Positions 1-26,086 of a stretch of DNA of 64,000 nucleotides are shown here, piece by piece; position 1 is the first letter of the stretch, and each line of letters starts with the position of its first letter. Below the pieces are notes generated by a model. It saw only the letters and a list, made by a program, of their open reading frames with translations. It was not told where the DNA came from and did not search any database. The stretch lies in contig NC_049992.1 of NCBI RefSeq assembly GCF_000003815.2, forward strand, positions 5,034,481 to 5,098,480. Direction: 5' to 3'. The position numbers and the translations under genes were made by a program. This DNA is from Branchiostoma floridae (taxonomy: Eukaryota > Chordata > Leptocardii > Amphioxiformes > Branchiostomatidae).

Positions 1-113
1 TTGGATTGAGTTGGTGTTTTCAAGCAATCACGAAATGATGTGACATTTCTACATTTCTACTCGTTTGGATGAATCAACTTACAATACTGATAAATCTGTG
101 TTCCTAAACGTAG

Positions 114-324
114 GTAACACTTGCTTCAAAGCTGCAACAAAATGGCACGTTGATCCTGGAATCCAGTACTCCATGGAGGGCCACACTCTATGAGGAAAAC
201 AACTCGGCGTTTGACGAGGTCATAGTCATTGGCTCGATCGCGACTACAACGTATTTGCCATTTAAGAACAGCAATGTGACCGCCAATGCCTTGCCGTTAA
301 AAGTCACATTTCTGTCCACCACTG
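114..324 (+). CDS. Gene A stalk exon
   Basis: The acceptor ends at 113 and the donor GTAAGT follows 324. The exon is 211 nt, phase 0 in and phase 1 out. It encodes a Ser/Thr/Asn-rich segment with N-glycosylation sequons (NGT, NNS, NVT). The closely similar exon of gene B is at 20347-20551 and shares NGT, ESSTPW, TLYEE and TYLPF blocks. I recognise no named domain. Its place right after the transmembrane exon in gene B suggests a stalk. Confidence 0.75.
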
Positions 325-3300
325 GTAAGTAATGTTAGTTTGAGATCAGTTTACCGTTTCGTTAGCCTCACCCTGTCCATAACTATCTATTTTGTTGGTG
401 ATGCTCTTTTTGAATTGATGATAAGGGTCTAGTTTTTTTTTTTCATTAAGCTCCTTACAAAAACCCGGATAACTGTGCCAAGAAACCATGCCAACACGGT
501 GGACACTGTGTGAACAAAGATGGCGGCTACAAATGTACCTGCTCACCTGGATGGACTGGACAGAACTGTCAGGAAGGCGAGTCTTTTTCTCGAGTCAATT
601 AAGATTTGAATAATTGCTGAGCTTTACCGTGTTCCTTCCTCTTAAAAAATAACCCTAATTGATTTGAAACAAGTCGCGAAAACATAACCGGGGAGAAAAC
701 TTTAACTAGAATCTTCTCCTTTCACATAGTATTCAAACGTCACCAAGACTATTTTCACCTTCTCCAATAAGGCTATATTTTCGGACATACAATTTTGTCA
801 AGTGGCTGAGGTCGTATGTGTGCATCACACGAGTCGTTGTGGATGGATCTTCATCATGGGTATTCTCAGTCAGTTCACCGAAAACAGGTCTATATTTTTT
901 CATCAACATAAGACTTCAACGATTGTATCATGATTTAGCCATAACATCATTTCCTTCTGTTTTCAAACGTTAACAGACATCAATGAGTGTACCAGGAACC
1001 CATGCCAACATGGACGCTGTGTAAACAAAGATGGCGGCTACAAATGTACCTGCTCACCTGAATGGACTGGGCAGAACTGTCGACTAGGTGAGTTCCCTCT
1101 CTCTGGTACATTCATTAATGTTGTTATTTCTCTATCCATTTTTCCTTTCTTTCCTATTCTTTCTCCTTCTTGTTGGTTACTTTATCACAGAGTTATAGAT
1201 AAGTGCATGTAAGGCTTTTGCAACGTTCTAGCTTCCAATTTGCCCGCTGCTGCAAAGTGTGACGTTACAACTGGATGGACTGGACAGAGCTGTCAGCAAG
1301 AGTACTTTTTATTGCAAGGGGGATAAGGTTTTAATTCATTGTCAAGTATTTAGTTCTTTACCTCTTTTTTATTCATTCTCAATTATATACAACAAAGATA
1401 CACAAATGCATAAGATATTATAAAACATTTGAAGTGGTACAAGGATGCAATTGCTAACACATATTCACCTAGAAACATCCATTGCTATATACTTACTTAC
1501 ACATTGTCAACTAGATGCAGCTACTATTGTAGAATATTAACAATACCACTTCCTGACCATTTTCAATACTATACCTTTCTTATTAATCTAAGCACATTCG
1601 GATTATTCATATACCCATTGTTTAGCCATATGGACCCCCATAGCTAGATACTCGTATTTTTAATGGTGGTACTCTTTTTTCTTTGATTTGACAATTAAGT
1701 TTTTGTCGTCATTTACCTTCTTACAAAGACGTGGATGAGTGTACCAGGAACCCATGCCAACATGGACAGTGCTTGAACAAAGATGGTGGCTACACATGTA
1801 CCTGCTCACCTGGATGGACTGGACAGAACTGTCAGCAAGGTGAGTTCTTTGTACATGCTGTTTTATTTCTTCCACATTCAACATCTGTCGTCTAACAGCC
1901 AACTGCTCATAGTTACACAATATTTAATTCATTACACAGATATTGACGAGTGCGTGGAGAAGCTCTGCCAACATGGACGATGTGTGAACAAAGATGGCGG
2001 CTACAAATGTACCTGTTCACAAGGATGGACTGGACAGAACTGTCAGAATGGTGAGTTCTTTTTTTTCGTACAGACAGTCTGTTAGAAATTTGTCCTTTCT
2101 TTTCTGTGGGAAAGCGTGTGTGACAGAATGTCTATATAGAGCTCTTTTTATCTGGTTAAATGTTTTGCAACCTCTAACCTACACCAGCAATTTTATTGCA
2201 TACTACAACGTTGTGCCTAAACTTTCCAGTAAATAATTCACAGTTTCATAAGTAAAAACGAATTGAAATTGAACAGGATATGAAACATCGTCTATTACAC
2301 ATTGCTTAATGATACCGAAGAAGATGCAAACTCCAAAACAAAAAGCTTGGTGTCATTGCTTGCCGTCTGGATTCAGCCCTGCACAGTGTGCCCGAGCTTT
2401 TGGATAATAAACTGTTTAGAGAGCTTATGCCACTAAATTCCAGCCAATTCTTTCTCCACCTTTATTGATAACAAGAAATTCTCCTATTAACTTCACAAAA
2501 CACACCCATTACAGTAAAGGTGGGATTATTTGTCTTCCACTGTCATCAAAAAAGAAGTTGACGAACCAAATGACTTAGAATCTAGAGTTCGCCTTTAGAC
2601 TAGAGTTGACACTTGCTATGTTGTTATACACTTTTGTCTGTACCATTTTATGTTACCTGCATTTAGCTCACGGGCAAGAATGTGCATTAAATCTATCATT
2701 TCCTTGTATGAGAAACACGTACCTCTAACTACTGAAGGCTTATTCCATCCATTACCGATTACTACAGTTGTACAGTGCCCCAGTGAGTGGAACAAATACA
2801 ACAGCCACTGCTACAAACTGATGACAGTCGAAGTCAGCTGGCCTACAGCGAGCTCACAATGCAAACGCCATGGCGCAATTCTTGCCTCTATCACTGACCA
2901 GGCCGAGAACAACTTTATTGCAAATCTGCTCTCGAAATGTGGGTAACAGTTTTTGCGTGTTAACGGTGAAGATGTTGTATCTCATAGGTCTGAAAAATAT
3001 GCAGACATTCTTATAAATCCTTATCACATCTCTCTGAAAGCTAAGACTGATTACAGCTGCAGAGTGTCTAAAACCACTGCAGCATCAGAACATAGTGAAT
3101 TACTACTTGTAGAGTGACCACCTTAACAGACTTCCAGAAAATGGTCAAGTAAACAAGTCACAGATCCTAATGGTTATGTCAAGTTGAAAATAAGGCAGGA
3201 CCACTAAAACTTTGCGCCTTTTTTAGTTTTTGATTTTTTATCTATTGTAAACATGACAAACAACTTCTGGAGAAATGTTCATTGGATACATTTGAGCGCA

Positions 3301-7795: not shown

Positions 7796-8761
7796 AGACG
7801 CTATTGTACTCGGAAATTGATGCTCTTACAAGCTTAGTGCACGCCTTGGTAATTAAGCAGAAGCACGCATACAGTGAATGATATTGCAAAGTGACCTCAT
7901 ACTAGGCCATACCAAATATAATGCATGTCCGAGAACAATAAATAATATTGATGCACACAAGGTTCAGTGAAAACTGTTAATGGGTGATATGATACCTGTA
8001 GCACAACCATTAGTAGTTGTACCTGTGTAAAATTTTCTCCTGTTACATTTGGCGCATTTTGATGTCAAAATTGACTTAGCCTTCTTTTAGGAAACAATCG
8101 TTCTGTGTGCAATGATACGAAAAACCTCCCCCTGCCGCAGAAACTGCAAGGAAACTTGCTTCCCTATGTGCCACCAGGCACTACACACGGGTTACAACAA
8201 CAAAATGGTTACTTTCGGCATTTTGTACCTCCTACAAAACATGTATAGTTAAACATCGATGTCTCTACTTTTGATGACAAATACCTCTTGTCATCATACA
8301 ACTTAACGCTTTTCACATCTTTATTATTATGCAGTTTCATTCATCCATATAGTAGTGTATAGCATATGCATCTTTTTTGTTTCAATTTTCATTACTAGGT
8401 GTCAGTTTGATAAACATTTGCAACTAAGAAGTTACCAACTGCTTCCGGACAGTAACTGTTTCCAATCTGAACTAAACTGAAGAGTCTAAAATACATAGTC
8501 TGCAGACGTTAGTTTTATATAGGACCTCATTAAATTCAGAATCTGTTGCTTTTTTCTGTGCAAACAATCTTTTTCTAACATTATGTATTATCAACTAAAT
8601 ATATTCTTGATTATTCAAATAGACAAACTCATCTGTGACATGACAGTGACCTTTGACATCTACTAGTGCTAATGCTGATTGTCACTACATAGTGATTTTG
8701 GCTAACATTTCTGCACACTCCTGTACCGGTATATTTTTTTTTTTTTACATCCGATAGGATG

Positions 8762-8866
8762 TCATGTTTTACGTTTCTTGCAAAGGTAAGGCTTTTTCTT
8801 CCCGCAGCGTCTGTCATTCCATTTTCCGCTTGCCCGCCTTTCTGTATTTATCGAATTGCTGCCACT
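8762..8866 (-). CDS. Gene B CTLD, last exon (WND motif and stop)
   Basis: On the minus strand the acceptor TTTCCCACAG is followed by 34 codons and TGA (8764-8762). They include GKWNDRRC and PYLCKK, giving the WND calcium motif and the last two conserved cysteines. The exon is phase 0 and 105 nt, the same as gene A. It is too short to show up as a long open frame and was found by comparison with gene A. Confidence 0.8.
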   Translation of the reverse strand, partial: SGSNSINTERRASGKWNDRRCGKKKPYLCKKRKT

Positions 8867-11800
8867 CTGTGGGAAATGTTTCATGCAGAAGATTGTTAGT
8901 TTCTACACATCAGTAACTTTTCTGTTCACTTGTCATTTTAGTCTTCCTTGTCTAAGGAGGAAGAAATCAAAGACGAATGCTTCATTTTTATAAACCAATA
9001 AACTGTCTTTGTACTTAAAAGAGGAACACGCACCTTGGAGTACATCACCACACACTCCTCTCGTCCACAGATCCAGCCTGCAAAGTTGTTAGGCTCGCCA
9101 GAGGCCCAGTTTGTATAGGTGAGTAAAGAGCCATCCAGCCAGCTCCAAGATTGTTCATTTTTACGCAGTCCAATCCAAACACCTTCAGTAGTAGGGGCTG
9201 CAAACAAACGGAAAGGGTTTTTAACATCGCGCCTCAAATTTGTTTTGTAACAAATTTTTGTCAGGCCAAGTCAAACAAATTATATTCAGTTTTCTTCGTT
9301 GAATTATAGTAAATTGTATTTTGGGAGTTCAGCATAACACCGAATGCTTTTTATGCACGCATATAATGTGAAGTAGCATGCATGTTTTACTTCTTAAAAC
9401 TAATATCTATTGGAAACAGCACCCTGTTGTGGGGTTTAGGACTCTTTTAAATCCGTCTGTTGATGACAATGATTATTTGCTACTCACATGTTGAGATGAG
9501 ACCTTTGATGAAGTCGTTCTCAGCCCTGCTTGTGATGGAGGCCAGATGTGCACCATATTGTTTACACTTTAACTGTGCATCAGATCCGCTGACACAGTCT
9601 GTCATCAGCTTGTAGCGGTGGTTGTTGTGTTCCGTCCATCCATTTTGACATCGTTTGGCTGCAACGAAACGTAACTGTAGTGAGTTCACACCAAAAGGGA
9701 TACTATATAATAGATGGTTGCAGGTAAAGGTGCGCTCCCACTGCACTCGCGACACTCTTGCGTCGCTGCGGGTTTCGACAACGCAAACGTAACCCCATGG
9801 AACCTAGAGGTGACGCGAGCGAACCTAGAGGTGACACAAGCGAACCTAGAGGTGACACAAGCCAACGCGACGGTTTTTTGAAAGTTAAAAAATAACGCAA
9901 TTGGCAAGATGCCCCAACAGTGACCCAATCACCCAAGAGTGACGCAACAGTGACACAACAGTGACACAACAGTGACGCCAGCATGCCTTCAACACTATCA
10001 AGGTTATATTTTGTCTATTTTGCACCAAGTATCAAAAGTAAACATCCTTTTATAACTGAAAAGCTATTTTGAATACATTTTGGATATCATTTTACAGCGG
10101 TTTTTGATTAAGCTACAACAGTGAGATTTCCACAAAACTTAACTTGTATCCGTATTCAGACTAACTTAAAAATATATTTTGTTTTATTTGATGGGAAATA
10201 GGCCAGAATTCTATACTTGTAAACGCCAAATAAGTAACTGGTATATCGATTCATAAACCTACAGATGTGGAGAAACAGAATACCGTACAACGTTGAAAAA
10301 GAAAGTATATCTATGTTGGATGATAACGTTTGCTTCTGAGTTTGCGATACAAACAATGTAATCATCGCCGGTAGCCTGCCGCAGATTGAACACTAAACTT
10401 GCAAGCAGTCGGACCCATAAGCCATGTTTTTCCCCATGCCTTTTTACGGTTAAAATAAAGGTTGTTTATTTGTGTTTTGATCTGACCACACACGAACTTG
10501 CCAAGGTCAGCTTTACGAGTAGCTAATTAGTTCCAGGCAGGCGGGATAGTCCGGGGCATCATTCCCGGACTGCAGACAGTGCGTGCCCGGACTGCTGACA
10601 GAACGTGTAGACGCGAAATGAAATCATGGCCGCGCTTATCCGCGCCGGTAAAATCTCCAACAAGCAAGACATCGAAGACTACCTCGCTTACACGGTGAAG
10701 GTGTCCGAGCTGTTCGAGGTATACGACGTACCGTCTGCCATATTGTACGACAACCAGTACAGGATCCTACAGAACCGTAACGGCTTTCGCCGGGGGAGGG
10801 ATTCCGAGCACTTACACTGCCGCTTTCTGCGGATCCGGACGGCGCCCATGTCAAGGCCATATATATGGCAATATATTTGTTTCAAAAATACGGGAGCTAT
10901 ATGCGTGACGTTTTTCCTAAAAATCCGACGTTTATCCGACGTATTACAAACTAAGTTATTGATAAATAGATGTTACGTTTGCCGCACGTTAGTGTGACGT
11001 TTCTGTAATACGTCGGACGTCACGTATTTTACGTCCATGTGACGTGAATTTAGGAAAAACGTCACGTATATCGCCCGTATTTTTGAAACAAATATATTAG
11101 CATAGGCGTACGTTAGATTATCGTCATCAGGTAAACGATATTGCAAGTCAGACGATTTTTTTTCATACGATATCGTTCTGGCATGTAAAAGATTCAAATG
11201 TCGAGGAGCAGATGTAGTACAGATGAGAGGAGGTCATAACACAGACCTTAAGGTTACATAATCAGACCTTACCACAGACTGGTACGTCACATTCTTCGAA
11301 TCTCGTGCTGGAGTCCGTGGTGTAGCACCACACTCCGGGTTCACCGTCCGGATTCCGGCAGTAGTTCTGCTCCAGTCCGGATGATGGGTGATTACCAGGT
11401 GTCCTGTCGTGTCCATGAGGAGTCTGGCTGTCCCAGCGCTGACACGTCTTGCCTGTTCTGGTCACGGCGACTGTTCCTCGGTAGGATGATCCGTCTCCAA
11501 CCTGGCAATCTCCTGGTTTATGTGATTTAAAAAGACAGTATTTGATACACGCTGGTTTAATTTTGAAGTGGGGTGTAAGCTAGTCTGGAATGGGAGGATA
11601 TGGTTGATGACAGGCGTGGGGTAATAACACATAGCTTCATGTGCTACCGTGTGGTGATTGCGTTGTATCGTTACGTTTTATCGTCTCTTTAAGGAATCTG
11701 TCGAAACAGAAAAACAAAACAAAATTGAACTTAATCTGTTCTGAAATTGGAATCGTTCATAAGGCCCATTTCGTCCTACAGAAACGACGATTTTTTCGTG

Positions 11801-14800
11801 CTATAATTAAACCATCTTTTTCATACAAAATTTTGAAACGGATATGATGTCATAATCGATATCGTTTTGCGTATATGATATCGTCTCGGAATAAAAACAT
11901 CACCATACTCCATTGTACGCAGCAAAATTCACTTTGCTAAGATATCGTTATAAGACGTACCTTAGATTATCGTAATTATGTATAACGAAATTTTGACGAT
12001 ATTTTTTTCATGCGGTATTTTTCCGGCATCTACATTCTATTTCTAAATATCGTATCACGAAAGGTGCGCTATAACGTCTGCATGTACATGCCAGAACGAT
12101 ACCGTATGGAAATGCATCGTCTGAATTGCGATATCGTATACGTAAAAGATATCGTTTGGGCCAGAAAATACGTATATCGTAGAAGTATTTTCGCTATTTT
12201 AAGGTGCGTTTTTAGATATTTTGACAAGGAAATACAGTCAAACCTGCCCAAGACGACCACCGGGGGACCGGAAAAAAGCGGTCGATTTGGACAGGTGGTC
12301 GCTGAGAAGAGTATCGACACAAAACATGCCCGATGCAAAGTATAAATGGTTTCCGTTGTGTAGTGGCAAATAGCAAGCACACTGCATGCACACAAAGAAG
12401 CGAGGTCGATTGTAAATCTAACCCCAAGCTTTTACCGAGCATTTATACGATACAGTGTTTTAAAGCTCAATATTTGTACACTAACGTTTTAAACAGTAAG
12501 GAAACTTTGATGCTGTCAGTGACCATACAAGCCTTTATGCGTCGTTCTTGATCGCCGTATCTGAAAGAACTACGGTGTACCTTTCGAATTCGATGCCCGG
12601 TAACATGCATTGGCATAATACCGGTCATAAGCCTTATACCGGTCGATTAAAAATAGTGGAACTTAAAGAGATCTACACATGCAACAATAGTTATTTCTGA
12701 GGTATGCACACTTCAGACATCTAGGTGTCCAATACATAATTTACAAAGCATCGATAACAATGCATTCGAAGACAACAAGGCCAAAAGTTATCAGGTCATT
12801 TTCGGGGCAGGCGAGCTCGTCGTGGGACAAACACACTGTCACGTTCATCGCCAGATTTGTAGATAATAATCACATGTGCTCACGGCACAAGACGAGCATG
12901 ATTCAACAGCAATCTTGAATTTCTTTTGGTGACCTACAACTCGTGTAAAAGTGTGAGGAACCGTTGCATTATCGCCCGGATCTACGGCTGAATGGGTCAA
13001 ATTGAACGTACGCCGCCATTTTCCCGCCATTTTCAATGCTACGCCTACGGCCAGCATGCAGTAAAGTTTTACGTCATAGCGGTTGTGACGGACCAAAATT
13101 AAATGAAAATTCTTGTCAGTATACGCCCATTTTCTCATGACTTTTTGTATGCTCATGCAGATTTGTTGAACAGGAAAGAAGGTACAACAGAGGATGTATA
13201 AAGGTACATAGCGGCAGTTAATTGTGCCGTGTTTCGTTCGGCCGGTATAGTGCACCCCCTTCCAACCACGCGCCCGTTCTCCGTGCAATTCCGCGGTGTG
13301 TTCCAATTATGTTTTTAGCAGGACCAGAGAGACAAAATAATTTACACAGAAGAAGTGGCAAAGGTAAGCTGTAACAGCAACATGTAACTGGAGAAAATGA
13401 TGCGTTGATCATTTGCCAAATTAGCATTGCTTGAGAAATTGCAGTAAACCGACCGGTATTATGCCAATGGATGTTACGTCCCGACAGCGGGTGAATGTAC
13501 AGTACAGTTGGACAAAAGCACTCACACAGATCTTTCTTAAAAGGGTATGAGCTACACAGATCTTTCTTAAAAAGCATGAGGCTATATACGTTTCAGCATT
13601 CGTTCACTTTACAATGATATAGATTTTAAAAAAAAACTTCTGTTACAACTACATTCGGATTTTCTCACAGCGAAATTTCCTGCCATATTACAGTAGACCG
13701 CCCCATTGACCCACCCATTGACCGCCGCCATCCTTATTCTAAACATAACTTCATAATGGCAGTCAAAATCCGATGCAAACTGGCCGATTTCGGCACAAAA
13801 TCGTGCTAGTTGTCATCAAAAATCGATGAAAACCTCAATTTTGAAAATGATGCGGTCGTTATGGGTCCCAATTTGGGCCGGTCGCGGTCGCGTTGGCCAG
13901 GTGGTCGTTGAGAAAAGGTCGCTTAATGCTTATACGTCAATGGGGAAAAAATCGGGACCGAGAAAAAACGGTCGAAATGGCCAGGTGGTCGCTGAGAAGA
14001 GGTGGTCGCTCGGGCAGGTTTGACTGTAATGCCATATGTGACACGGAAATGACTCCATATACGGTATTTGACCTCTCCAAAATTTGCCCCCATACAAGAA
14101 TGGTCATACACTCAATTTATATTTGCAGCATCATATAAAGACGTTTTACTGTTCATTGAAGGTACCTTTTAGTGCTGTTGACATGCAGACCCACAGCTTG
14201 CATAGCCACTTCACCGTGTCAGCTAAAAACATAACCTTCTTGGCGAAGGTAATACGTTGGGTACGGTACTTACCGCAGCGATATTCAGCATTAGTAGTCA
14301 GCCCAAAAACGTTTACGTCAGTGGTTTCCCAGTCAATCACGTTGCCATGTTGACGACAGGAGTCTGTCCCTATCTCAGCTGGAGTCAGCACGCGGTCCCA
14401 GAGGTTCAGCTGCGACAGTTCCCCGATGAACGCTTGATGTGGCTCGAACCCTCCCCCAACTGTGTCTTGGTCCTGTGCAAGGATCCATGTTCCACCACTG
14501 CGCACTTTCCCCCCTACGTTAAGCCTCGAGCCGGAAGCGTGACGAACGCCGTCGACGAAGACCTGCCAGGCTCCATCGGTGCTGCTCCAGGTGGCACATA
14601 CGGCATGCCTTTCACCATCCCAAACAGGCAAGGCACCAAGGGGGGCAGTGGGTGTACCTTGTACCCACAACTGGAAAATATGTTTCAAGGACATGGACGG
14701 TCATCTTTGAAATTACAGCATGTATTGCTAAATTAGTCTTGAGAAATAAAAGAGTGGCGAGTTAGATAGCAGAGGTTTGTGATTGACAACTTACTTCCAA

Positions 14801-17800
14801 TCCCTTCCCTGCTTTATTGAAGATAAGTAGCTCATTGTCATGTTCTTGTACAGCATAGCTGACCACACCTGCATGGCTGGTGGAACTCATGTCGGTACGC
14901 AGTTCCAGACATAAAGTAAAACTTGTTAAGTCCTGGGCCAATGTTTTCCCCAGCCTGGCGTAGTTATTGACGCTTCGTGGAGCCGGAAAGGTTATCTCTT
15001 GCAAATAACCTACTGTAATTGCTGTAATTGACAGGAACAATTATATATCTTTATCAAGTATTTACGGAGTTCCCGCCAAATACCTGGCAGTTTGCAGGAG
15101 TTCATAAAAGTAACGGCTCAAGTCTTGCCATCCGCGGCAAATAGGTGTTATGAAAGTAAAGAAACCCTTTCAAACAATACATGCATTATCTACAATGCAG
15201 GTAATTGTAATTCCTGTGCAAGTATATACCGATACCAATACATTGTGTCTGAGTTTTGTCAAGTATGATAAAAGATCATTTTGCAATTTCTCATTAGAAA
15301 AGACGCGGGAAAATTTGACACGTTGTTACATAACTTCCGGGCAAAAGCCTTTGCTTCTCAAAATATCCGGGAGATTTCGATATCGATTTAAAGATGTCGT
15401 CAAATAGACTAACACACCAATGGGATCAAGGTGAACTGCAAAAAATCACTTATGTTTCGAAAGCCAAAGCGATCCCTGCCATTTTGAAATGCTGAAATAT
15501 CTGAACCTAGAGCTCCACGACCCCATACCTTCGCCAAATGATCCTAACCTTTACAACTGGTGTATTAATTGTCTGTCATTAATTATGCAAATAAGGTTCT
15601 CATTTGCATAAAAAATATTACTTGATCATCTCCTCCATCAAACAGACGTACACAATCTGTGTAAGAAATAAGGCTTTTATTCATCTGATAATCACGCAAA
15701 TGAGGACCTCATTTGCATAAGTAATGTTCAACGATGTTCACCTGTACATAACTGCCAAATGCTACAAGTGAGAAGTTCCCGTCATCTACAACAATGACAT
15801 TATAATAGCATTTTCTTATTGATGCAAATGAGGTATATATTTTGCATAATATCTATCTATCAATATTCTTCTCCTTCTCCGTTACAGATCTCACATGTTG
15901 CAATGGTCCTTTAATGGAACTGAGCGTGCTTACACGATTTTCTAATCATTTCTTCAAATTAAGTACCAATTTGCATAAATAATATGTAATTATATGAAGC
16001 ATCAATTAATCCATTTAAATACCAAAAATCATAACAAACCATCAACTCCTTTCAAAGTCTTACACTAAACCTGCCCTGCAGTTCAGAACATGCCGCTAGG
16101 GGGCCCAAACCTATACTTCTTACTCTCGGCATCAAGAGCTCTCTACCACTCAAAAAGCATAGTTCTGTATCCTGAGCAGGTGCATTAATTTGTATCCATA
16201 ATCTTTGTTCACACAGTGTCCATGTGGCATGGTTTCCTGGTACACTCATTGGTGTCTTTGCAGTAGGAAAAAAAAGAAAAGTTGTAGGTCTTTGGAATAT
16301 TTGGAATTGTTTCCAACATCGCCCCCAAGAAAATGTTGATACATTTACCTAGTAAGATACGTGTACTAGTATCTCGGTCAAAATTAAGATGGGCTTCGAT
16401 CATAAGAAATAATGTACGACGCATGTTTCTAACAAAGAAAAGGACATGATAATGCTCCGGAAACTAACAGACAGTATCAAGAACTCGCCTTGCTGACAGT
16501 TCTGTCCAGTCCATCCAGGTAAGCAGGTACATTTGTAGCCACCATCTTTGTTCACACAGCTTCCATGTTGGCATGGGTTCCTGGTACAGTCATTGATGTC
16601 TATGTTGAAGTAATGGATATACCCATCATTAAGAAAGAGAGAATGAAGAAAAAGGATAAAAAAAATCAATAATGCCTGAAAGTGAATCGTAGTCACGGAA
16701 AAAAATAATCACCTTCCTGACAGTTCTGTCCAGTCCATCTAGGTGAGCAGGTGCATTTCTAGCTATTTGCCAGATTTGTTATATTTCAGCCATACCATAG
16801 GCATGGTGAATTATATTTTATTCGTAATGCTTCTTCTTTCTTCCTTCTTTCTCCTGTCAAATCTTCAAAGTACGCTATCTCAGTCGTTCCTGCACAGAAT
16901 GACTTGGAATTTGGCACAGTAGAAGAGTGGGCCAATACCTCGATGTCGTTTTTTTTCTTCATTTTGTTCATATCTGCCTCTAAAATAGTTTTATTGAGGT
17001 TTTATGGTCATTTTTATACCAAAACGGTATATTTTGCCCCCCTGCGCCCTGGTATTACAATTGAATGACCTAAAATTTGGTATAGATAGGCATTAGATCT
17101 TTGATAAAATGATCCAAGTACAGTTTTTGGCATAGACTACTTTAAAATGCTTAATTTCAGCACTTTCCGAGGGGAAATTGGTTTTCTTTCGGCCGCCTGC
17201 CGTGACCTTTCGGACGTTCACCCCACAGAGCCCCACACCTGCTACGGATCGACTGCACACCAACATCGTGCTTAAAACCTGCCTGCTTTGTGTTGAATTG
17301 GAAGTTCTATACATTATGCCACGACCATGTAAACTAAATGTAGTAAAGGCCTACCTGAAAATACTTGGACTTCGCACAGGGTAAGTATACGGGAGGATCC
17401 GGGAAGACAGACTCCCACATAGCGACCCTTCATCCCCTGACAAGAGACGGAAATGGACGGCTGGTTCAAGTTGATGTGATGATCACCTCCACACTTGGGG
17501 TTGGTGCTGACCTGGTCGGAATTCCCGATGTGGATGTTGAAGGGGTTGAGTCGTTTAGCACAACAGTCCTGGCGGTTAAAGATGACCACTCTGTAGATAT
17601 TGGAGACAGAAAATACACAATGGCACCTTAGTTTGATACGCATTGTATGTTCACTGACAGGTAAATATTCATGGTACTCCATAAAACCTGCAAACTTTGA
17701 TAGATCCTCAGGCACTATAATTACTTATACCAAGTATGTGTTCTTTTAGACAAGTAGTCAATCTATCATATTTTATTAGTGATGGATAATAGATCCGGAA

Positions 17801-20800
17801 ATATGCTGTAAACGTACCTGTCAATCACATACGATTGGCCGAGATCCACCCACCAGGTTGGATTTGTCTCTCCCGGGTCACCTACAGTGTGTGTACAGGA
17901 ACCAGCAGTGTAGTCAGTATTGGTGTTCCCGTCTACGGCACGGCTGGCAACTCCGTCCCCAAGAGTGCTTGTTTGAAACGCCGTCTTCCCCAGGGCGACA
18001 TTGGCACCTGACCCAGGGGAGGGGACTGTCATTAGCAGTGTGGTACTTGCATCGATGACTCAAACTGAACAACAGCTTTCCGTCATAATAACTACAAATA
18101 AATGTCTGCCTCGTGCAACATTAGGCCATCCCACATTCAACATACTACCCCAAAAAGATAGAAAACTGCGCCTTTATGCTTAATTTAAAGTTTGTGTTGT
18201 TTCAAATCTATCTCACATCTATCAGATTACGTAGGGTCTACTGGCGGGATCTGTCATCTGACCGCACGTATAAGAAAATCTCTTCGTGTTTGTTCAACAA
18301 GTGGACAAGTAGTGTGTAGAACATGTCTAAAACTAGAGTTCGGCGACCTCATACCTCCATGAATATTTAGAGCTTTAGTTAATTTCATGCAAATGACTTA
18401 ACATTAACATGATTTATGCATGGTGTTGTTCATCATTGGATAACGTACAGTACACATGTGACAAGTAAAATTCCCAATTCAAATCATTAATCATTAAGTT
18501 GTTTTGCAATTTTTGCATAAATTATGCAAATAAGTTCCTCATTTGCATATTTGATATCTGCATATGTTCCACCGATTATATGTAAGTATTACATTTATCG
18601 AAGTCCACTTATTGCAAATAATGGAATTATACAATTTCCTGATTGATTATGTAAATTAAGTCCTTATTTACATAAAATGCATATCATTATGAACCTTCTT
18701 TGCATAAGCTACCTGCATACCTAAAATGCAGGCAATCTGCAGTTCCTTTCTGCAGTTATCCTCTTTGGAGTGTCTTGACAAAAACGCCCCTGCAGTTCCA
18801 CAATTGAATGTTAGGGGACTGAAACTTGCCCCACTTTGTCATGACGCTAAAAGCTATCTACCACCCAAATGTCACGACCATATCACGTACGGGACAAGAG
18901 ATACATTGAAAAAATTGCTATTATAGAATATTCTCATTAATTATGCAAATGTACTAGAATAACAAGGATGAAAAATCCACGATGACGCCAAAGTGAATGG
19001 TAGTCAAGAAAAAAGTAATCACCTTGGTTACAGTTCTGTCCAGTCCATCCAGGTGAGCAGGTACATTTGTAACCTCCATCTTTGTTCACACAGCGTCCAT
19101 GTTGGCAAGGTTTTCTGGTACACTCATTGATGTCTGTGTGACAACACAAAAAAACCATTTGGTTCAATGAATTTTTGCCAGCAGCGTCCAATTGTAGAAA
19201 TTGGACAAATAGAGTCAATAGTACGCTAGGGGAGTCGGCCGGCCAATAGTGGTGAGGATAATGATTCTACTGGTCGGCTGACTCCCCTAGCGTACTATTG
19301 ACTCTGTCCAATTTCTACATTTAGACCACCGATCCACGGAGCCTGGTAGAGGCTACAATTGCTGAGCTTGGGCAATAAAGACAAAGTCAAGTTGATGAAT
19401 AAGTAAATGGGTTTTGAACACAGCTGTGAATCTTAAGACGAATGACAATTAAATCCATTTCAAACCTTGGTGTTGCGGTAAAGGAAAGTCACCTTGCTGA
19501 CAATTCTGTCCAGTCCATCCAGGTGAGCAGGTACATTTGTAGCCGCCATCTTTGTTCACACAGCGTCCATTTTGGCATGGGTTCCTGGTACACTCATTGA
19601 TGTCTGTGTAACAACACAAACAGAATCATTTTGCTTAAATGGACTTTTGCCAGCAGCGCCCAACTGCTAGGCATCAGGCAAGGCAAAGTCAATCTGATGA
19701 GGTAGTATTTGGGGTTTAAACACATGCACAGCTATAAAACTGACGAATGAAAATGAAATCCATTTGGTATTGCGTAAAGACAACGCACCTTGCTGACAGC
19801 TCTGTCCAGTCCATCCAGGTGAGCAGGTACATTTGTAGCCGCCATCTTGGTTCACACAGTGTCCATGTTGGCATGGGTTCCTGGTACACTCGTCTAGGTC
19901 TGTGTGTTTAAACAAATGTAGCAGTATGATACATAGATATATCTTTTGTTAAGAAAGAGGGAGTGAAGAAAAAGAAAAAAAGGATTAAAAATCCATGATG
20001 TTTGCAAAGTGAATGGCAGTCATGGAAAAAGTAATCACCTTGTCGACAGTTCTGTCCAGTCCATCCAGGCAAGCAGGTACATTTGTAGCCACCATCTTTG
20101 TTCATACAGCGTCCGTGTTGGCATGGATTGCTGTTACACTCATTAATGTCTGTAAAACAAAGGGGAAAAAAGAAAGGATTTTTACTCTACTCATCTAAGG
20201 CGTAATGAATAACTTTAATGGCAAGAACACTATAATCAAGTTTCATGCAATTGAATAAAGAGTATTGGCAATAACATTAATGTGTACTCTTGGGGCTAAA
20301 ATAAAGGGTATCTGAATAGTGTTCAACTCAGTCAAATATTACTTACCCGTGGTTGTCCCTAATGTGACTACCATTGGCATGGTGTCGGTGGTCACACTGT
20401 TGTTCGTAAATGGCAAATACGTTGGAGTCGAGTCGATAACTGTGACCGTCCCTAATGCCGAGTTCTTTTCTTCATAGAGTGTCGTCTTCCATGGAGTACT
20501 GGACTCCATGATCATCGTGCCATTTTGTTTCAGCTTTGAGTCAAGCACAACCTACATTCAGAAACATGCACAAATTTATCCGTATGGTAATTAACGCATT
20601 GCAACCAGTAGAAATTATCACACTATATGATCAATAAGGAACTAATACTAGTAACTAATTATAACCTAGTTGCAGAGGTCGACTTGACCTAGCTTTTTTA
20701 CTCGCACAGTTGTTTTCTTATTGCTTGTTGGGTTCTGGTTGCTTTATCATAATATAAGGACTGAGTTTAAAAACATCAACGTCCGGCGAAGTCGACAACG

Positions 20801-23800
20801 GAGACTGCAACTTATGTTCCCTCAGGCTACTAAGGCTAAGGTCCCAGAAAAAAGGGGCGCTTCCAGACAGTTCACAGGCTTTTCTTTTGGCGCTTTTGGC
20901 CGTGAACCCTACGTAGCTCCGGCGTTTTCGGGACCGGTCGGGCACCGGAATGTACACACCACTAGGCACCAGTACAATTGGGACCATAGACTGAACAAGA
21001 AATTAAAGCTTACCCTTCCACCAAAAGTTATGTGAGTTGCCAGGATGACAGCGATGACCACTGACGTGACGAACAGAAGTCCACATCCCATTGCAAGCAA
21101 GCAAAAAATGTTGGACTTCCATCTGCTCCACATTTCCACGACACGCTCTGAGATAAACAGGAATGGTAGAAAATGCATTCTGTGTCAGTATGTATCAAAG
21201 ACGTTAAAAGGGGCGTCCAACCTAAGAATCCGTTTTGCCCACAACCCCTCGATTTTTTCCTGTTCAACACTCTTTGTCGCAATAGCAATGGGCCAAACAA
21301 GTTAAGAGCCATTTTGCCAGTGAGATCTTTGCATGTCAAAAACAAAGATACAGTAGAAGCCGTTTAATTGCACACCCCATTTGCCAGCGCATTTCGTGCA
21401 ATTATCAGGGTGGTGCAATAACGCTACATTATACAGCTGGACCACACCAAGTTTGTGATTTGGGGATTCCGTGCAAATAACGGAAGTGTGCGTTAATCCG
21501 TTGTGCATTTAACAGGCTTCTGGCTCGTTCTCATTGAAATGTCAAAAACGATGTCGCCTGACTTTACGACTTGATATTGAGCAAATTATAGACAGCATGA
21601 CTGGTCCCTTTGTTTTTCCACAACCCCTGTAATGTTTTACAAAAGATGCACCACAACATTCATATTGGTTCATGGCTTTGAAGGTTATTATAACCTCGGG
21701 TGGGATTTCAACCCCTAAAAAATGGCTGTCGCCTGAAAAGATACGAAGAATTCAAATAGTAGCCAAAACGGAACAATTCAGTTCCCCAAATGATTGTTCG
21801 GCAGATGAAACCAGCTACCAAGGCCCTCTGTCCGATCACGTCAGATCGCTACTGTCATTGATCTTGGAGGCTGTGTGAGGAGGTTTATGCCTGTCGCCAA
21901 ATTCGGTAACAAACGTTACCACCACAAGTACGATGGTTGCCACGGTTATATTATCCACGTATAAGACTAGAAATGGCCGATTTTGTGACGCTTTACAGTT
22001 TTTCTGGTTTTCTGAAGAAACAGAAAAAGGGTCATTGACTGCCATTTGTATCCCACCTTGCTTACAAAATGTTGTACAGAAATGACTGTAACAAACGTTA
22101 CCATTGTTTGATGCTTTCGAAGCATTCTGTCTGACCCGGTGCAAAAATGCTGCCCACTTTTTAAATGTCCCTAGGGACGTCAACTAATGTTAATCCTTTT
22201 GAAGAAAATGGGTTAAGTTTACTGTTGTAACAAATGTTACCGGTAAAATTTGTTACCTGTCCTGTAATGCATTACCAATGGGACCGAAAATAATAAGTTG
22301 CCATTTTGTGGCTATGCTTAAAAGAGGAATTTTCCTAAACAACCAGGTAGTTTTCACTGAAAATAAAGCCGATTTATTTTTCGACCAAGAAAATGCCATT
22401 TTTGACATTTCAATGAGAACGAGTGTTCTGCTCTATTGGCAAAGGTTAGCAATCGACGGGTACAAAGTGCGTGATAGTAACGGATGAAGACATTAGAAAA
22501 AATAATAATACAGGTCCCACTGAGCCAATGGCTCAGCTTGTATATCAAGCGTTCAGAGACATTTATCCTCCATGAAATAATAGGAGCCTGTTTAGACTGA
22601 ATGCAAATGTCTTCTATGTTTACATAATCCATGAGCAGTGACATTAATGTTTAACAAACGTATTATAATTATGGAATTCTGCATCGATTATGCAAATGAG
22701 GACCTTATTTTCATAATAAGTGTCTGTTAATGAAGCACCTGCCCTTAATTACATATGCTTTAAAATCTTGTAATGGGAGAGCAGTTACATTATAGGATTT
22801 CTCATGGAGTTTTCAATTCATATCTATCGATGTTCCTTCCTTTAAAAGTATAAATGGCATAAGTTTGAATAGTCATGTCATGGACAGCAATGATTTTATA
22901 ATATTTCCTCATTTATTATGCGACTTACATCAAGATTTGCATATTTATCATTTAATTAAGTCAATTATCATGTCAAGTATCTTCATACCAAAAACGACTG
23001 AAAGCAGGAGACTTTAGATCTAGAATGGCCCAAAGCGACAAAGATGTTTAATTTAGATAATGGCATAAACTACTAGCCCTATATGTATATCTAGCTGTAC
23101 TGGCATTAGCTATAGTCAACATATATAGCCAAACAAAAGCAGGGGAGGTAGATATATCTAAGGAGATGACTCTGCAGTTCCACAGTGGCCTGCTAGGGGG
23201 TTCAAACCTACACCAGTCGTCCCTTATCTCAACACCTTTCTGTCACCTAGAAATCAACACCCCGGCACGTCCGGGAACAAAGATAAGGACGTCCTGCTGC
23301 ACTACCAAGGTCAACCACCAGACTAAAACGCCCTAAAACGCATTAGAAATTGTCGGGTTCACAACACCTACTCACGTACCTAATCGCAATCAATCCAGAT
23401 GTCCTTGAAGCTAAGCGGGTTGTGCCCTTAGCTTAAGAAGTTAAGATATTCGACCAGAGACGCACACACAAACTAAGCTGCAGATCCACAGCATGCCAAC
23501 TAGGAGGTCCCAAACAAAACAAAAAAGGTGGTAACTGCACGAAAGCCTTGGATTACGACCGAACTACTGGAGGCAATCAGTCAAAAAACGGAACTCTACA
23601 ACACCTTCAAGTCCTCTCCAACACCAGAGAACTGGAGAAACTATACTCAAACCAAGAACCGCCTAACGAAAGACCTACGCCGAGCGGAGGCTGAGTACTA
23701 CTCCACCGTTAGTGACAGACTGAAAACTGCTGATGGCGCCCGAGCCTTCTGGTCTGTACTCAAACAAGCAACAGGGAAGAGTAAATCTGGCATTCCTGCA

Positions 23801-26086
23801 CTCTCCGTAAATGGCATCGTCCTGGACAAAGACAAAGATAAGGCAGAAACCCTTAATGACGTCTTTGTCAGAGTCACTAAGGAAGCTACGCATCCAAACT
23901 TTACAAGCAGGCTCCCTAAGTTCACTGATGAAGTACTCTCTACAATTCACGTCTCAGAGGAAGAAGTCCTGGGTGTGCTGCAAGGATTACATCCTAACAA
24001 GGCTCCAGGCCCCGATGGAATAACCAACCGACTCCTTAAGGAGGGAGCACCAGCCATCAGCGCCTCCCTTTGTCAGCTTTTCAACTTGTCACTCGCTACA
24101 GGACAAATACCAAAAGACTGGAAGCAGTCAAACGTGTCGGCAATATACAAAAAGGGTGATCGGACTGATCCATCAAACTACAGACCGATCGCACTTCTGC
24201 CCACCGTAGCCAAAGTGTTGGAGAGAGTCGTTCACAACCGCCTGTACACTTACCTTACCGTCAACAATCTGTTAAACGTCAACCAGTCTGGTTTCAAAAA
24301 AGGGGATGGGACAGTCCTACAACTCCTGCGATTGGTTGACAACTGGGCCAAGTCCATTGATGACTCCAATGTCTCCTGTACGGCCGCCGTCTTTCTGGAC
24401 GTCCGTAGAGCGTTCGATACTGTGTGGCACGATGGATTAACGTACAAGCTATCGCGTTACGGAGTTAGTGGACCACTCATCAGCTGGTTTAATCACTACC
24501 TCACAGACCGCCAGCAGCGTGTGGTCATTAATGGTGCTACGTCGTCTTGGAGGTACACGTACGCGGGCGTCCCACAGGGCAGTATCCTTGGCCCGCTGTT
24601 ATTCTTAGTCTACATAAACGACATCAAGGACTTACCTTGTACATCGGACATCAACAGTTTTGCTGATGACACGTCTTTGTCAAACTCGGGACCGACGGCC
24701 GAGCAGGTAGCCAGCACCACAAACTCCGACCTACAGCTTGTTTCTGACTGGTTTGATGTCTGGGGTCTAGAACTGCATCCAGGGAAGTGCAAGGTTATTT
24801 GCATCAAGTCTGCACGAAGCAGAGTTGTACTTCCTCCTATCTACATCTCAGGCCAGCTCATCGAACAGGTTCCCTTCTACTCGCATCTTGGTGTCACCTT
24901 ACACCAGGCTTTGGGCTGGAACGACCACGCACAGAATACTTCCAGTAAGGCCAGAAAGGTACTTGGATACCTCTGGAGGTTGCGAGGCAAGTTGTCCAAG
25001 GAAGCACTGGAACTGGCTTACCTTACCCTTGTGCGACCTAGGCTGGAGTATGCCTCCATCCTCTTCACCAACATGAGTGTAGCCGCCTCCAAAGTACTAG
25101 AGCGCGTACAGTACCATGCAGGCCGCCTAGTTACAGGTGCAGCGCCAAGAACACCCTACTCGGACGTGCTTCAAGAGCTTGGATGGGACAGGCTCTCAAC
25201 TAGGCGAGACTATCACCGTCTAGTCATCATGTACAAACTGGTTACCGGCACTGTACCACCCCACCTGCAACCACTCATCCCTCAAACAAGACAAACCCAA
25301 ACCCAGCTTCGTCTGCGAAACTCTTCACACCTCCATATCCCTCGCTGCAGAACTACAACATACAGCAACAGCTTTATTCCATATACCTCCAGACTGTGGA
25401 ACAACCTACCAAACCACATCACCGACTCCACCACTTTCCCACAGTTCAAAGCCCGTTGCAGAAGCCACCTCCTGTCAGGATTTTAATATTAAACCCGTAT
25501 GATAGTATACTGACCTTCCACCTACTCCAATCTTTTAAGTTAGCTGACAAATGGTATAGATCAATCTGTATAGTTGCATGACACCTTTTAATCATTGATT
25601 ATTTTATTGTATTATATTGTATGACTTCTTTGTATGTTCGTCCGTATTTTTGTAGGTTCTGCCGCTACCAGCCCAAAGCTGCCTAGGCAGACCCTTGTAA
25701 TGACATGTCTCATCGTCAATAAAGAAAGAAAGAAAGAAAGAAAGGTCCACTTTTACGTCAATACCTATCTTCTCTGTCTACAATGCGCTTACGGTTGCAT
25801 CAAAAGGGTGTACTCAATGCTGTAACGTACCTTTAGATCTGTATGCAAAGCTGACTTCCTTAGGATCTTTGTAAGCATCCTCTGGTTTGTCGTAGTCGTG
25901 AGAAGAAGACTCCTCCTCATACGCGTTGTTTACTTCCTCAGGCACTTTGTAGCCGTAAGCACCCTCTGGGTTTTTGCAGTTGTGGGAGGAATGACCTTCC
26001 TCATACCCCTTGTTGACATCTTCAGCCTTTCGGTAAGTGTGTTCTGATTCATGCGATGGCGTGTTCTCGCCAATCGCCATTCCTGC
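8762..26086 (-). CDS. Gene B: type II membrane receptor with EGF, F-type lectin, pentraxin, kringle and C-type lectin domains
   Basis: Sixteen minus-strand coding exons chain in phase: 26080-25831, 21147-21014, 20551-20347, 20149-20039, 19899-19789, 19603-19493, 19133-19023, 18025-17818, 17590-17355, 16599-16489, 15012-14795, 14670-14274, 11512-11273, 9658-9488, 9197-9034 and 8866-8762. They total 2883 nt, exactly 961 codons from ATG to TGA. Approximate residues are: cytoplasmic tail 1-83, membrane helix 97-120, stalk 129-196, four EGFs 197-344, F-type lectin 345-492, EGF 493-529, pentraxin 530-734, kringle 735-814 and CTLD 815-960. There is no signal peptide; the helix follows an N-terminal hydrophilic tail, so type II topology is predicted. 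An acceptor-like CAG just before 26086 suggests a non-coding first exon upstream. Function is inferred: a surface receptor for glycans or phospho-ligands on microbes or cells. Splicing needs transcript support. Confidence 0.82.
9034..9197 (-). CDS. Gene B CTLD, exon 2 (EPN motif)
   Basis: Acceptor TTTGCAG, donor GTGCGT. It encodes [21 protein letters not shown] and EECVVMYSK. The EPN calcium/mannose motif is intact. It is four codons shorter than the gene A exon. Confidence 0.88.
9488..9658 (-). CDS. Gene B CTLD, exon 1 (altered cysteine pattern)
   Basis: This 171-nt phase 1-1 exon has acceptor GTTGCAG and donor GTGAGT. It encodes [21 protein letters not shown] and ASITSRAEN. Compared with gene A, the conserved HCYKL has become HRYKL, and the tryptophan of the first helix is lost. 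A new cysteine appears six residues later (MTDCVS). The N-terminal disulfide of the long-form CTLD must therefore be missing or re-paired. Confidence 0.85.
9716..10245 (+). repeat. Interspersed repeat, copy 1 (second copy at 60437-62990)
   Basis: It starts near CCACTGCACTCGCG and holds three tandem 21-bp units (GAACCTAGAGGTGACACAAG type), a run of AGTGACACAAC units and a long unique tail ending near GTAAACGCCAAATAAGTAA. The same sequence recurs, about 90% alike by eye, at 60437-60869 and, after an inserted LINE, at 62906-62990. Confidence 0.8.
10626..10860 (+). pseudogene. Coding-like retroelement fragment, antisense in gene B intron
   Basis: An ATG at 10626 opens a frame with [20 protein letters not shown] and later a YDNQYR...GRDSEHLH block. 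This pattern resembles the first protein of tyrosine-recombinase retroelements. It is GC-rich compared with the flanks and ends where a TIR element begins. Family call is tentative. No intact neighbouring element genes are seen. Confidence 0.4.
10870..11098. mobile_element. Foldback/MITE with ~50-bp inverted repeats
   Basis: The arms are 10870-10922 and 11049-11098. They share AATATATTTGTTTCAAAAAT, CGTGACGTTTTTCCTAAA and their inverses. The centre repeats TACGTC/GACGTA motifs. It lies in the gene B intron between kringle and CTLD. Confidence 0.75.
11273..11512 (-). CDS. Gene B kringle domain exon
   Basis: A single 240-nt phase 1-1 exon (acceptor AAACCAG, donor GTAAGG) encodes a complete kringle. 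It starts [12 protein letters not shown], then has [26 protein letters not shown] and ECDVPVC, so all six cysteines are in order. Kringles are disulfide-knotted ligand-binding modules best known from clotting and fibrinolysis proteins. A kringle beside a CTLD and a pentraxin on one membrane protein is unusual. Confidence 0.92.
12235..14025. mobile_element. Non-autonomous DNA transposon, pogo/Tigger-like ends, TA target
   Basis: The left end starts CAGTCAAACCTGCCC and the right end is its exact inverse over 15 bases, followed by near-matching GCGACCACC. Both sides are flanked by TA. Sub-terminal copies of GGTGGTCGCTGAGAAGA lie at both ends. CAG... ends with a TA target suggest the pogo/Tigger group (inference). 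No transposase frame is visible. The element fills most of the gene B intron between pentraxin and kringle. Confidence 0.75.
12608..13469. repeat. Inner inverted repeat nested in the pogo-like element
   Basis: CATTGGCATAATACCGGTC (12608-12626) is exactly mirrored at 13451-13469, and the match extends a few bases outward (GTAACAT). It marks an element nested within the larger one. Confidence 0.6.
14274..14670 (-). CDS. Gene B pentraxin domain, exon 2
   Basis: A 397-nt exon (acceptor TTTTCCAG, phase 0; donor GTAAGT, phase 1). It contains HAVCATWS, an exact fit to the pentraxin signature H-x-C-x-[ST]-W-x-[ST]. [14 protein letters not shown] aligns with the calcium loop of classical pentraxins (QEQD in C-reactive protein; here QDQD, a conservative change), and FEPHQ keeps the next Glu and Gln ligands. 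It ends [10 protein letters not shown] and YRCG. The calcium site looks competent by residue comparison. Confidence 0.92.
14795..15012 (-). CDS. Gene B pentraxin domain, exon 1
   Basis: A 218-nt exon (acceptor AATTACAG, phase 1; donor GTAAGT, phase 0) with [26 protein letters not shown] and [13 protein letters not shown]. The Asp-Asn pair in HDNEL corresponds to two calcium ligands of C-reactive protein. Its cysteine (TLCLEL) pairs with that of HAVCATW in the family. Confidence 0.9.
15540..16050. repeat. AT-rich interspersed repeats with ATGCAAAT/ATTTGCAT cores
   Basis: Several units of ATTAATTATGCAAAT, then GAGG...CTCATTTGCATAA, each semi-palindromic. The same family recurs at 18500-18680, 18925-18955, 22670-22960, 40060-40240 and 45220-45260. 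It is usually near a TGCAGTTCCACA...CTAGGGGG(T/C)CCAAAC box (16075-16110, 18775-18830, 23175-23210, 23480-23515, 40350-40390). Probably one non-autonomous element family. Confidence 0.65.
16145..16255 (-). pseudogene. Decayed EGF exon (frameshift) in gene B intron
   Basis: It starts as a normal EGF exon ([10 protein letters not shown] after an AAAG acceptor). It then loses one base in the CAACAT segment, which brings an in-frame TGA. The rest (GGATACAAA, CACCTGCTCA, CAGAACT) is still recognisable but has several indels. A dead EGF repeat. Confidence 0.8.
16489..16599 (-). CDS. Gene B EGF domain 5 (GC splice donor)
   Basis: This 111-nt phase 1-1 exon starts DINDC and keeps all six cysteines and [12 protein letters not shown]. 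The exon is followed by GCGAGT, so a GC donor is needed, as for EGF 1 of gene A. It lies between the F-type lectin and the pentraxin. Confidence 0.82.
16711..16765 (-). pseudogene. Decayed EGF half-exon in gene B intron
   Basis: Only the 3' half of an EGF exon is present (KCTCSP.WTGQNCQ) with a usable-looking GTGATT donor. There is an in-frame TAG just before it and no 5' half or acceptor. Confidence 0.75.
17355..17590 (-). CDS. Gene B F-type lectin domain, exon 2
   Basis: A 236-nt exon (acceptor ATCTACAG; donor GTAGGC; phase 2 in, phase 1 out). It carries [12 protein letters not shown], which keeps the F-type lectin fucose-binding pattern R-x-D-C-C-x2-R, including the vicinal cysteine pair of eel agglutinin. 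It continues with [10 protein letters not shown] and LTLCEVQVF, the usual end of the fold. Confidence 0.92.
17818..18025 (-). CDS. Gene B F-type lectin domain, exon 1
   Basis: A 208-nt exon (acceptor ATGACAG, donor GTACGT; phase 1 in, phase 2 out). It encodes [27 protein letters not shown] and [12 protein letters not shown]. The histidine in SCTHT is the expected third fucose-binding residue. There are 29 residues between it and the first arginine, against 26 in the published family motif. Fucolectin / discoidin-like fold. Confidence 0.92.
18026..19022 (-). other. Gene B intron between EGF 4 and F-type lectin
   Basis: About 1 kb, AT-rich, holding the TTTGCATA repeat family (18500-18680, 18925-18955) and a TGCAGTTCCACA box. 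No extra exon found. Confidence 0.6.
19023..19133 (-). CDS. Gene B EGF domain 4
   Basis: A 111-nt phase 1-1 exon, donor GTGATT. It starts [15 protein letters not shown] and is nearly identical in DNA to its neighbours. Confidence 0.9.
19195..19318. repeat. Inverted repeat (foldback) in gene B intron
   Basis: Arms 19195-19243 and 19274-19318 share AGAGTCAATAGTACGCTAGG and its inverse, with a ~30-bp spacer. Stem about 45 bp with a small bulge. It lies between EGF 3 and EGF 4. Confidence 0.85.
19493..19603 (-). CDS. Gene B EGF domain 3
   Basis: A 111-nt phase 1-1 exon, donor [21 protein letters not shown] start, with Asn in place of the His found in the other copies; all six cysteines present. 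Confidence 0.9.
19789..19899 (-). CDS. Gene B EGF domain 2
   Basis: A 111-nt phase 1-1 exon, donor GTGCGT. It starts DLDEC, and the calcium-binding pattern reads [12 protein letters not shown]. Confidence 0.9.
20039..20149 (-). CDS. Gene B EGF domain 1
   Basis: A 111-nt phase 1-1 exon, acceptor TTTTACAG, donor [16 protein letters not shown] start, [12 protein letters not shown] pattern. Confidence 0.9.
20347..20551 (-). CDS. Gene B stalk exon
   Basis: A 205-nt exon (phase 0 in, phase 1 out; acceptor AATGTAG, donor GTAAGT). It follows the transmembrane exon directly, carries NGT and NNS sequons and aligns with the gene A exon at 114-324, which is two codons longer. No named domain. Confidence 0.8.
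21014..21147 (-). CDS. Gene B transmembrane exon
   Basis: A 134-nt exon (acceptor TTATCTCAG, phase 1; donor GTAAGC, phase 0). A basic stretch (MWSRWKSN) precedes about 24 hydrophobic residues ([22 protein letters not shown]), then THITFGGR. Basic residues on the N-terminal side and glycosylated EGF/lectin modules downstream predict a type II helix with the N-terminus in the cytosol. Confidence 0.85.
21352..21520. mobile_element. TIR repeat, CAGTAGAAGCC...GGCTTCTG
   Basis: It starts CAGTAGAAGCCGTTTAATTG and ends GTGCATTTAACAGGCTTCTG, an imperfect inverted copy. A related left end is at 56185 (CAGTAGAAGCCAGTTAATTG). Confidence 0.55.
23485..25745 (+). mobile_element. 5'-truncated non-LTR retrotransposon (CR1/L2/Jockey group)
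   Basis: A long open frame (23528-25486, about 652 codons) with no ATG at its start encodes reverse transcriptase and C-terminal parts only; the endonuclease is missing. Visible motifs are [48 protein letters not shown] and a late RLWNNLP box. After the stop come ~230 bp of 3' tail ending in tandem GAAA units (25722-25745). 5' truncation and a simple-repeat tail fit target-primed reverse transcription. It lies antisense in gene B's first coding intron, ending about 85 bp from the tail exon. The uninterrupted frame points to a fairly recent insertion. Confidence 0.9.
25831..26086 (-). CDS. Gene B cytoplasmic-tail exon with start codon
   Basis: ATG at 26080-26078 and 83 codons to donor GTACGT (phase 1). 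The tail is acidic and tyrosine-rich and contains a ~27-residue internal repeat: GYEEGHSSH...PEGAY and AYEEESSSH...PEDAY, each followed by EV. No classical ITAM, ITIM or NPxY is present. The start was chosen because it is the first ATG after a TTACAG acceptor and its frame joins the transmembrane exon in phase. Confidence 0.72.

Follow-up and report, generated by a model that had tools for sequence, protein, structure and literature searches.

F-type lectin domains joined to pentraxins, C-type lectin domains (CTLDs), CCP domains and membrane helices have been reviewed (PMC5712786, excerpted text). The Xenopus protein Xla-PXN-FBPL joins a pentraxin to F-type lectin, and Drosophila furrowed and CG9095 combine an F-type lectin with a CTLD and a predicted helix. 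Xla-PXN-FBPL has multiple F-type lectin domains, and the Drosophila proteins have CCP repeats; the excerpt mentions no helix, kringle or CTLD for the former, and no pentraxin or kringle for the latter (PMC5712786). In lancelets, one clade of proteins contains a fucolectin, two CTLDs, CUB and ApeC, several carbohydrate-recognition domains among them, with no mention of a pentraxin or kringle in the excerpt of that report (PMC12373286). A study cited there ranks Branchiostoma floridae first among eukaryotes in the number of novel domain combinations. Lancelet domain pairs have reportedly been gained at more than 10 per Myr, 10- to 100-fold over the usual metazoan rate, and the new pairs show a 1-1 phase bias (PMC4284660, excerpt). 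On the cytosolic side, DCBLD1/2 are single-pass receptors with intracellular YxxP arrays and an outer FV/FVIII-type domain, in a CUB and LCCL ectodomain (PMC6029619, excerpt).

The window analysed here is a stretch of 64,000 nucleotides of B. floridae DNA. One of its genes is predicted to encode a receptor that has the pentraxin and F-type lectin of Xla-PXN-FBPL, the F-type lectin, CTLD and helix of the Drosophila proteins and several carbohydrate-recognition domains as in the ApeC proteins, together with a kringle. Its likeness to DCBLD1/2 is a functional analogy only. Our preferred reading, with a probability of roughly 0.55, is that of one gene for a type II receptor, built by cassette insertion, with a multivalent binding head and YxxP signalling. 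The sequence-only reading had suggested that the protein was without precedent among described proteins known to it. As to the exact combination this is supported, as no open-licence full text was found in which F-type lectin, pentraxin, kringle and amphioxus occur jointly, and none of the paper titles listed names the architecture; as to kind it is not, given the precedents in the excerpts of PMC5712786, PMC12373286 and PMC4284660. The exact four-fold combination looks new, within a prolific and known kind of lancelet domain mixture.

Overall organization of the gene

The gene model was rebuilt from stop-to-stop frames and splice sites of the genomic sequence. It runs on the minus strand from an ATG at 26080 to a TGA ending at 8762, in 16 exons that add up to 961 codons, 960 for amino acids and one for the stop. 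The features are as follows (window coordinates).

25831..26080, minus strand: exon 1, cytosolic tail, 83 aa (gene model, residue count)
21014..21147, minus strand: exon 2, transmembrane helix (gene model, hydrophobicity)
20347..20551, minus strand: exon 3, stalk, two predicted N-glycosylation sequons (gene model)
20039..20149, minus strand: exon 4, EGF1, phase 1-1 (gene model, Pfam)
19789..19899, minus strand: exon 5, EGF2, phase 1-1 (gene model, Pfam)
19493..19603, minus strand: exon 6, EGF3, phase 1-1 (gene model, Pfam)
19023..19133, minus strand: exon 7, EGF4, phase 1-1 (gene model, Pfam)
17818..18025, minus strand: exon 8, first half of the F-type lectin, phase 1 start (Pfam, PDB matches)
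17355..17590, minus strand: exon 9, second half of the F-type lectin, phase 1 end (Pfam, PDB matches)
16714..16758, minus strand: relic of an EGF-like exon, second half only, outside the model (sequence match)
16489..16599, minus strand: exon 10, EGF5, phase 1-1; the donor after it is GC (gene model)
16173..16256, minus strand: EGF-like relic split between frames, outside the model (sequence match)
14795..15012, minus strand: exon 11, first part of the pentraxin, phase 1 start (Pfam, PDB matches)
14274..14670, minus strand: exon 12, second part of the pentraxin, phase 1 end (Pfam, PDB matches)
11273..11512, minus strand: exon 13, kringle, phase 1-1 (Pfam, PDB matches)
9488..9658, minus strand: exon 14, first part of the CTLD, phase 1 start (Pfam, PDB matches)
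9034..9197, minus strand: exon 15, middle of the CTLD, EPN motif (gene model, PDB matches)
8762..8866, minus strand: exon 16, last part of the CTLD, WND, stop (gene model, PDB matches)
8320..8325, minus strand: AATAAA, candidate polyadenylation signal, possibly by chance, 437 bases beyond the stop

All 15 junctions are phase-matched in this rebuild, and no stop codon lies inside an exon, in agreement with the sequence-only reading, which had proposed 16 exons in one phase-consistent frame from ATG to TGA. The region 8700-26100 contains no N. The introns are GT-AG, with the sole exception of the GC donor after exon 10. This donor (CAAG|GCGAGT, exon end at 16489) is located exactly at the junction between EGF5 and the pentraxin, and apart from the GC it matches what we take to be the splice consensus. 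Omission of the EGF5 exon keeps the reading frame. The same symmetry is found in the units that follow the stalk: EGF1-5, the F-type lectin, the pentraxin and the kringle are each in phase 1 at both ends, and the CTLD unit starts in phase 1.

The proposed order of tail, helix, stalk, four EGFs, F-type lectin, EGF, pentraxin, kringle and CTLD is borne out by the gene model, and its named domains by Pfam and PDB matches. All reported Pfam domains exceed Pfam's cut-offs: Pentaxin (4.9e-36), Kringle (1.2e-26), Lectin_C (5.2e-21) and F5_F8_type_C_2 (2e-20), with EGF_CA on five stretches.

Membrane topology and the cytosolic tail

A single segment has a 19-residue mean hydrophobicity above 1.6 (windows starting at residues 95-114), the best value elsewhere being 1.13. 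As this lone strongly hydrophobic segment comes after the 83-residue tail exon, a type II single-pass protein is the natural reading, and the topology proposed earlier stands on that ground.

The tail encoded by exon 1, which overlaps an 84-base tandem repeat at 25871-26025, has eight tyrosines, three of them in YxxP motifs: Y44 (YKVP), Y63 (YDKP) and Y70 (YKDP). The motif recurs in the related tails of the family described below, with at least one YxxP in 14 of the 15 tails, the receptor's own included. Together these 15 contain 44 YxxP, compared to a shuffle mean of 6.5 (maximum 15 in 1,000); the stretches are tblastn matches, mutually related, repetitive and in some cases partial, and the counts are therefore a family signature as opposed to independent events. 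ITAM, hemITAM and ITIM lectin receptors have cytosolic YxxL/I/V motifs. Such motifs are absent from the receptor's own tail and from the 14 related stretches (0, against a shuffle mean of 8.6). The abundance of YxxP, the absence of YxxL/I/V and the binding of the CRKL SH2 domain to YxxP sites of DCBLD receptors (PMC6029619, excerpt) suggest that the family tails may signal in a Crk/Abl-type rather than an ITAM manner.

The binding modules

The F5_F8_type_C_2 region, a galactose-binding fold, is an F-type lectin, as shown by PDB matches over most of the domain to MsaFBP32 (3cqo, 5.8e-56) and the eel lectin (1k12, 4.8e-19). The fucose site of both structures is matched in the alignment by His390, Arg420 and Arg427, and there are three additional residues between the His and the first Arg as compared to 3cqo and 1k12. 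The module has a His and two Arg with RxDxxxxR spacing, which we take to be the fucose-site motif.

The closest structures to the pentraxin are neuronal pentraxin 2 (4.7e-36) and neuronal pentraxin 1 (3.1e-34), followed by CRP (2.3e-25). Residues DN, QDQD, E and Q, presumably the CRP-type calcium ligands, align with those of CRP, with one Glu replaced by Asp. The segment HAVCATWS at residue 624, within this module, fits what we understand to be the pentraxin signature, HxCxTWxS.

The Pfam match of the kringle is full length (positions 1-79 of 79), with six cysteines, and its nearest PDB match is plasminogen. NPDGE, W, Y and R are found in the alignment, with Glu in place of the second Asp and Tyr in place of the Phe of kringle 4. 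Most residues of the plasminogen lysine site, which we take to consist of an acidic pair, aromatics and an Arg, appear to be kept.

The CTLD has EPN at residue 906 and WND at residue 942, presumably the mannose-type C-type lectin motifs, and in the PDB it is best matched by mannose-receptor family chains that have several CTLDs. Long-form CTLDs usually have an N-terminal cysteine pair. In the receptor this pair is incomplete, its second Cys being an Arg (in HRYKL); the CTLD has seven cysteines, two of them extra, and those at 818 and 836 might pair instead.

The earlier claim that each fold keeps its diagnostic residues is correct for most of these residues, but one N-terminal cysteine of the CTLD is an Arg and there are replacements in the pentraxin and the kringle. 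If the aligned residues have the functional roles that we assume for them in the four folds, fucose, phosphocholine-like and mannose-like ligands may be recognised jointly by the receptor.

The helix-stalk-EGF-CTLD family and the neighbouring paralogue

The genome to which the window belongs (513.4 Mb, 431 contigs, with the window in contig 14, C14) was searched for relatives. At E <= 0.01 the helix exon gives 33 matches, with itself counted, and nine of them fall in C14:4.86-5.06 Mb. In at least 17 of the 33, the receptor gene included, a CTLD match lies no more than 15 kb downstream and on the same strand. Among the CTLD matches listed (the best 150 of 1,166 candidates, E <= 1e-5), the CTLD is upstream of the helix in 7 of the 33, in or near tandem arrays, and on the opposite strand in one. 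This list is incomplete, since the CTLD of the neighbouring gene, seen by tblastn, is missing from it. Where a locus examined is long enough, the tail, helix, stalk and EGF exons are in the same order.

The receptor belongs to this family. It has the homologous YxxP tail, helix, stalk and EGF exons and the downstream CTLD. In comparison with the family plan, it has the F-type lectin, EGF5, pentraxin and kringle added ahead of the CTLD. One member of the family is located next to it:

1..4386 (with L084 from 4793), plus strand: neighbouring paralogue, adjacent, inverted, tail-to-tail (tblastn)

This paralogue is 74% identical to the receptor in the tail exon, 68% in the helix and 60% in the stalk (at window 114-323), and it also has EGFs as well as two exons that match Lectin_C, whereas the last exon of its CTLD was not seen. 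There is no match to the F-type lectin, pentraxin or kringle in it (tblastn of the window and L084).

Module relatives elsewhere in the genome

The lists of module matches comprise 150/151 matches for the F-type lectin (the best 150 of 479 candidates), the best 150 of 547 candidates for the kringle (119 of them used in the co-location with CTLD and helix) and 79 places taken from 136 exon rows for the pentraxin. Among the matches listed, the nearest relatives of the modules are on contigs other than that of the receptor: C9 for the pentraxin (85%), C2 for the kringle (83%) and C4 for the second F-type lectin exon (90%). Helix, F-type lectin, pentraxin and kringle are found together at the receptor locus only, again among the matches listed.

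Partial combinations, seen as match positions as opposed to gene models, occur at several places. An F-type lectin is followed by a pentraxin on C19 (L085), and F-type lectin, pentraxin and F-type lectin matches are in order on C9 (L086). At C7:11085434-11090301, CTLD, F-type lectin and pentraxin matches follow one another on the plus strand over less than 5 kb, possibly a second three-lectin gene. On the minus strand at C14:9121883-9134085, helix, kringle and CTLD matches are in order on one strand, possibly a kringle-bearing member of the family. Near 11.77 Mb of C7, there are helix, EGF and F-type lectin matches, with no CTLD among the matches listed.

Selective constraint

The modules were compared with their nearest three relatives each, after removal of self matches (>98.5% identity) and of matches containing stops; exon 16 has no relative among the loci compared and is outside the comparison. 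The dN/dS point estimates are below 1 in all 43 rows (0.04-0.88), with L055 and L086 standing for a single C9 pentraxin (so that two rows each appear twice) and three EGF rows being comparisons with EGF exons of the receptor gene itself (L049:293-183, and window:19604 twice). The least constrained exons are the tail (0.88), the first pentraxin exon (0.74) and the first F-type lectin exon (0.67). A pseudogene was considered and judged unlikely, given these ratios and the lack of in-exon stops.

One gene or several

The locus is real and coding, and probably a single gene. In the simplest history, its ancestor would have been a member of the local helix-stalk-EGF-CTLD receptor family, into which phase-1-symmetric cassettes (F-type lectin, EGF, pentraxin and kringle) would have been inserted between the EGFs and the terminal CTLD. 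The neighbouring paralogue has this plan without the F-type lectin, pentraxin and kringle, and the cassettes therefore appear to have been inserted before the CTLD. Such an insertion argues for a single gene, as does the downstream CTLD, which is the commonest arrangement in the family and ties the end of the locus to its start. This argument is stronger than that from the five internal introns scanned, in which there is no signal-peptide-like first exon with a phase-1 donor; with a chance expectation of just 0-0.1 from shuffles, the scan excludes only an obvious separate start.

The main doubts about one gene come from the GC donor, from the EGF relics and from the intron ahead of the kringle, which is 2.8 kb long with dispersed repeats; window 13000-14000 within it has at least 58 genome matches including itself (the best 40 of 2,205 candidates scored). 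These features would fit a helix-stalk-EGF-F-type-lectin receptor that ends near EGF5, followed by a separate pentraxin-kringle-CTLD gene, and the C7 locus near 11.77 Mb could be a receptor of the first type. Against such a division, every junction is in phase, the scanned introns offer no separate start, and the CTLD is downstream of the helix in at least 17 of the 33 family matches; we regard two genes as quite improbable. As each cassette, and each of EGF1-4 as well, is in phase 1 at both ends, it can be omitted in frame, and the GC donor after EGF5 could weaken that junction; one locus might then give several proteins by varied skipping, with the four-fold chain one isoform among them, perhaps a minor one. 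That the compared modules have dN/dS below 1 in all 43 rows speaks against this, and we consider it unlikely. Similarly unlikely, in our estimate, is that the gene is single but serves mainly in adhesion or developmental signalling instead of microbe recognition. The nearest structures to its pentraxin and kringle, neuronal pentraxins and plasminogen, would be in keeping with such a role, and the DCBLD receptors, which also have YxxP tails, are scaffolding receptors (PMC6029619, excerpt). On the other hand, tandem and dispersed paralogues with differing lectin heads fit varied targets, and the dispensable genes of lancelets show an enrichment in CTLD genes (PMC12373286, excerpt).

A possible mode of action

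In the preferred reading, of one gene for a multivalent type II receptor, the head would use several weak sites to bind microbial or altered-self surfaces that are polyvalent. The F-type lectin would bind fucose, the pentraxin calcium-dependent phosphate-type ligands, the CTLD mannose-type glycans and the kringle exposed lysines. Clustering of the receptor could let Src/Abl-type kinases phosphorylate the YxxP sites, and the phosphorylated sites may recruit Crk-type SH2 adaptors, leading to adhesion or engulfment and to a putative immune role. More tentatively, and with considerable doubt, we propose that lancelets have a type II family whose members share a conserved YxxP tail, helix and stalk, on which the lectin heads are interchangeable. 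The four-fold member, with its unrelated binding folds, would couple multivalent binding of microbes or dying cells to Crk-type engulfment signalling, a lectin-receptor logic distinct from that of ITAM.

The locus would be a clean and testable case of a receptor built from phase-1 cassettes, in which the neighbouring paralogue still has the plan that probably received the cassettes, and the nearest relatives of the modules, among the matches listed, are on other contigs. If it is transcribed whole, its product would be the first to combine F-type lectin, pentraxin, kringle and C-type lectin in a single chain, so far as the searches reach. The YxxP tails make signalling by the receptor family directly testable.

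Other features of the window

Ten of the 238 listed ORFs were examined with Pfam for further coding modules in the introns, and nine of the ten gave no match. The remaining one is a 660-aa open frame at 23504-25486 on the plus strand, antisense within intron 1 of the receptor gene, with a reverse transcriptase domain (RVT_1, 7.8e-35). Rfam has no match in the whole window.

Outside the receptor gene, an 810-aa open frame at 33003-35432 on the plus strand contains leucine-rich repeats (LRR_8, 6e-26), with no TIR domain reported in the frame. A run of 995 N is located at 50391-51385. An exon-sized frame at 47145-47666 on the minus strand matches eukaryotic DDAH (4.9e-6), and a tandem repeat at 38908-39274 has 19.3 copies of a 19-base unit with 99% matches.
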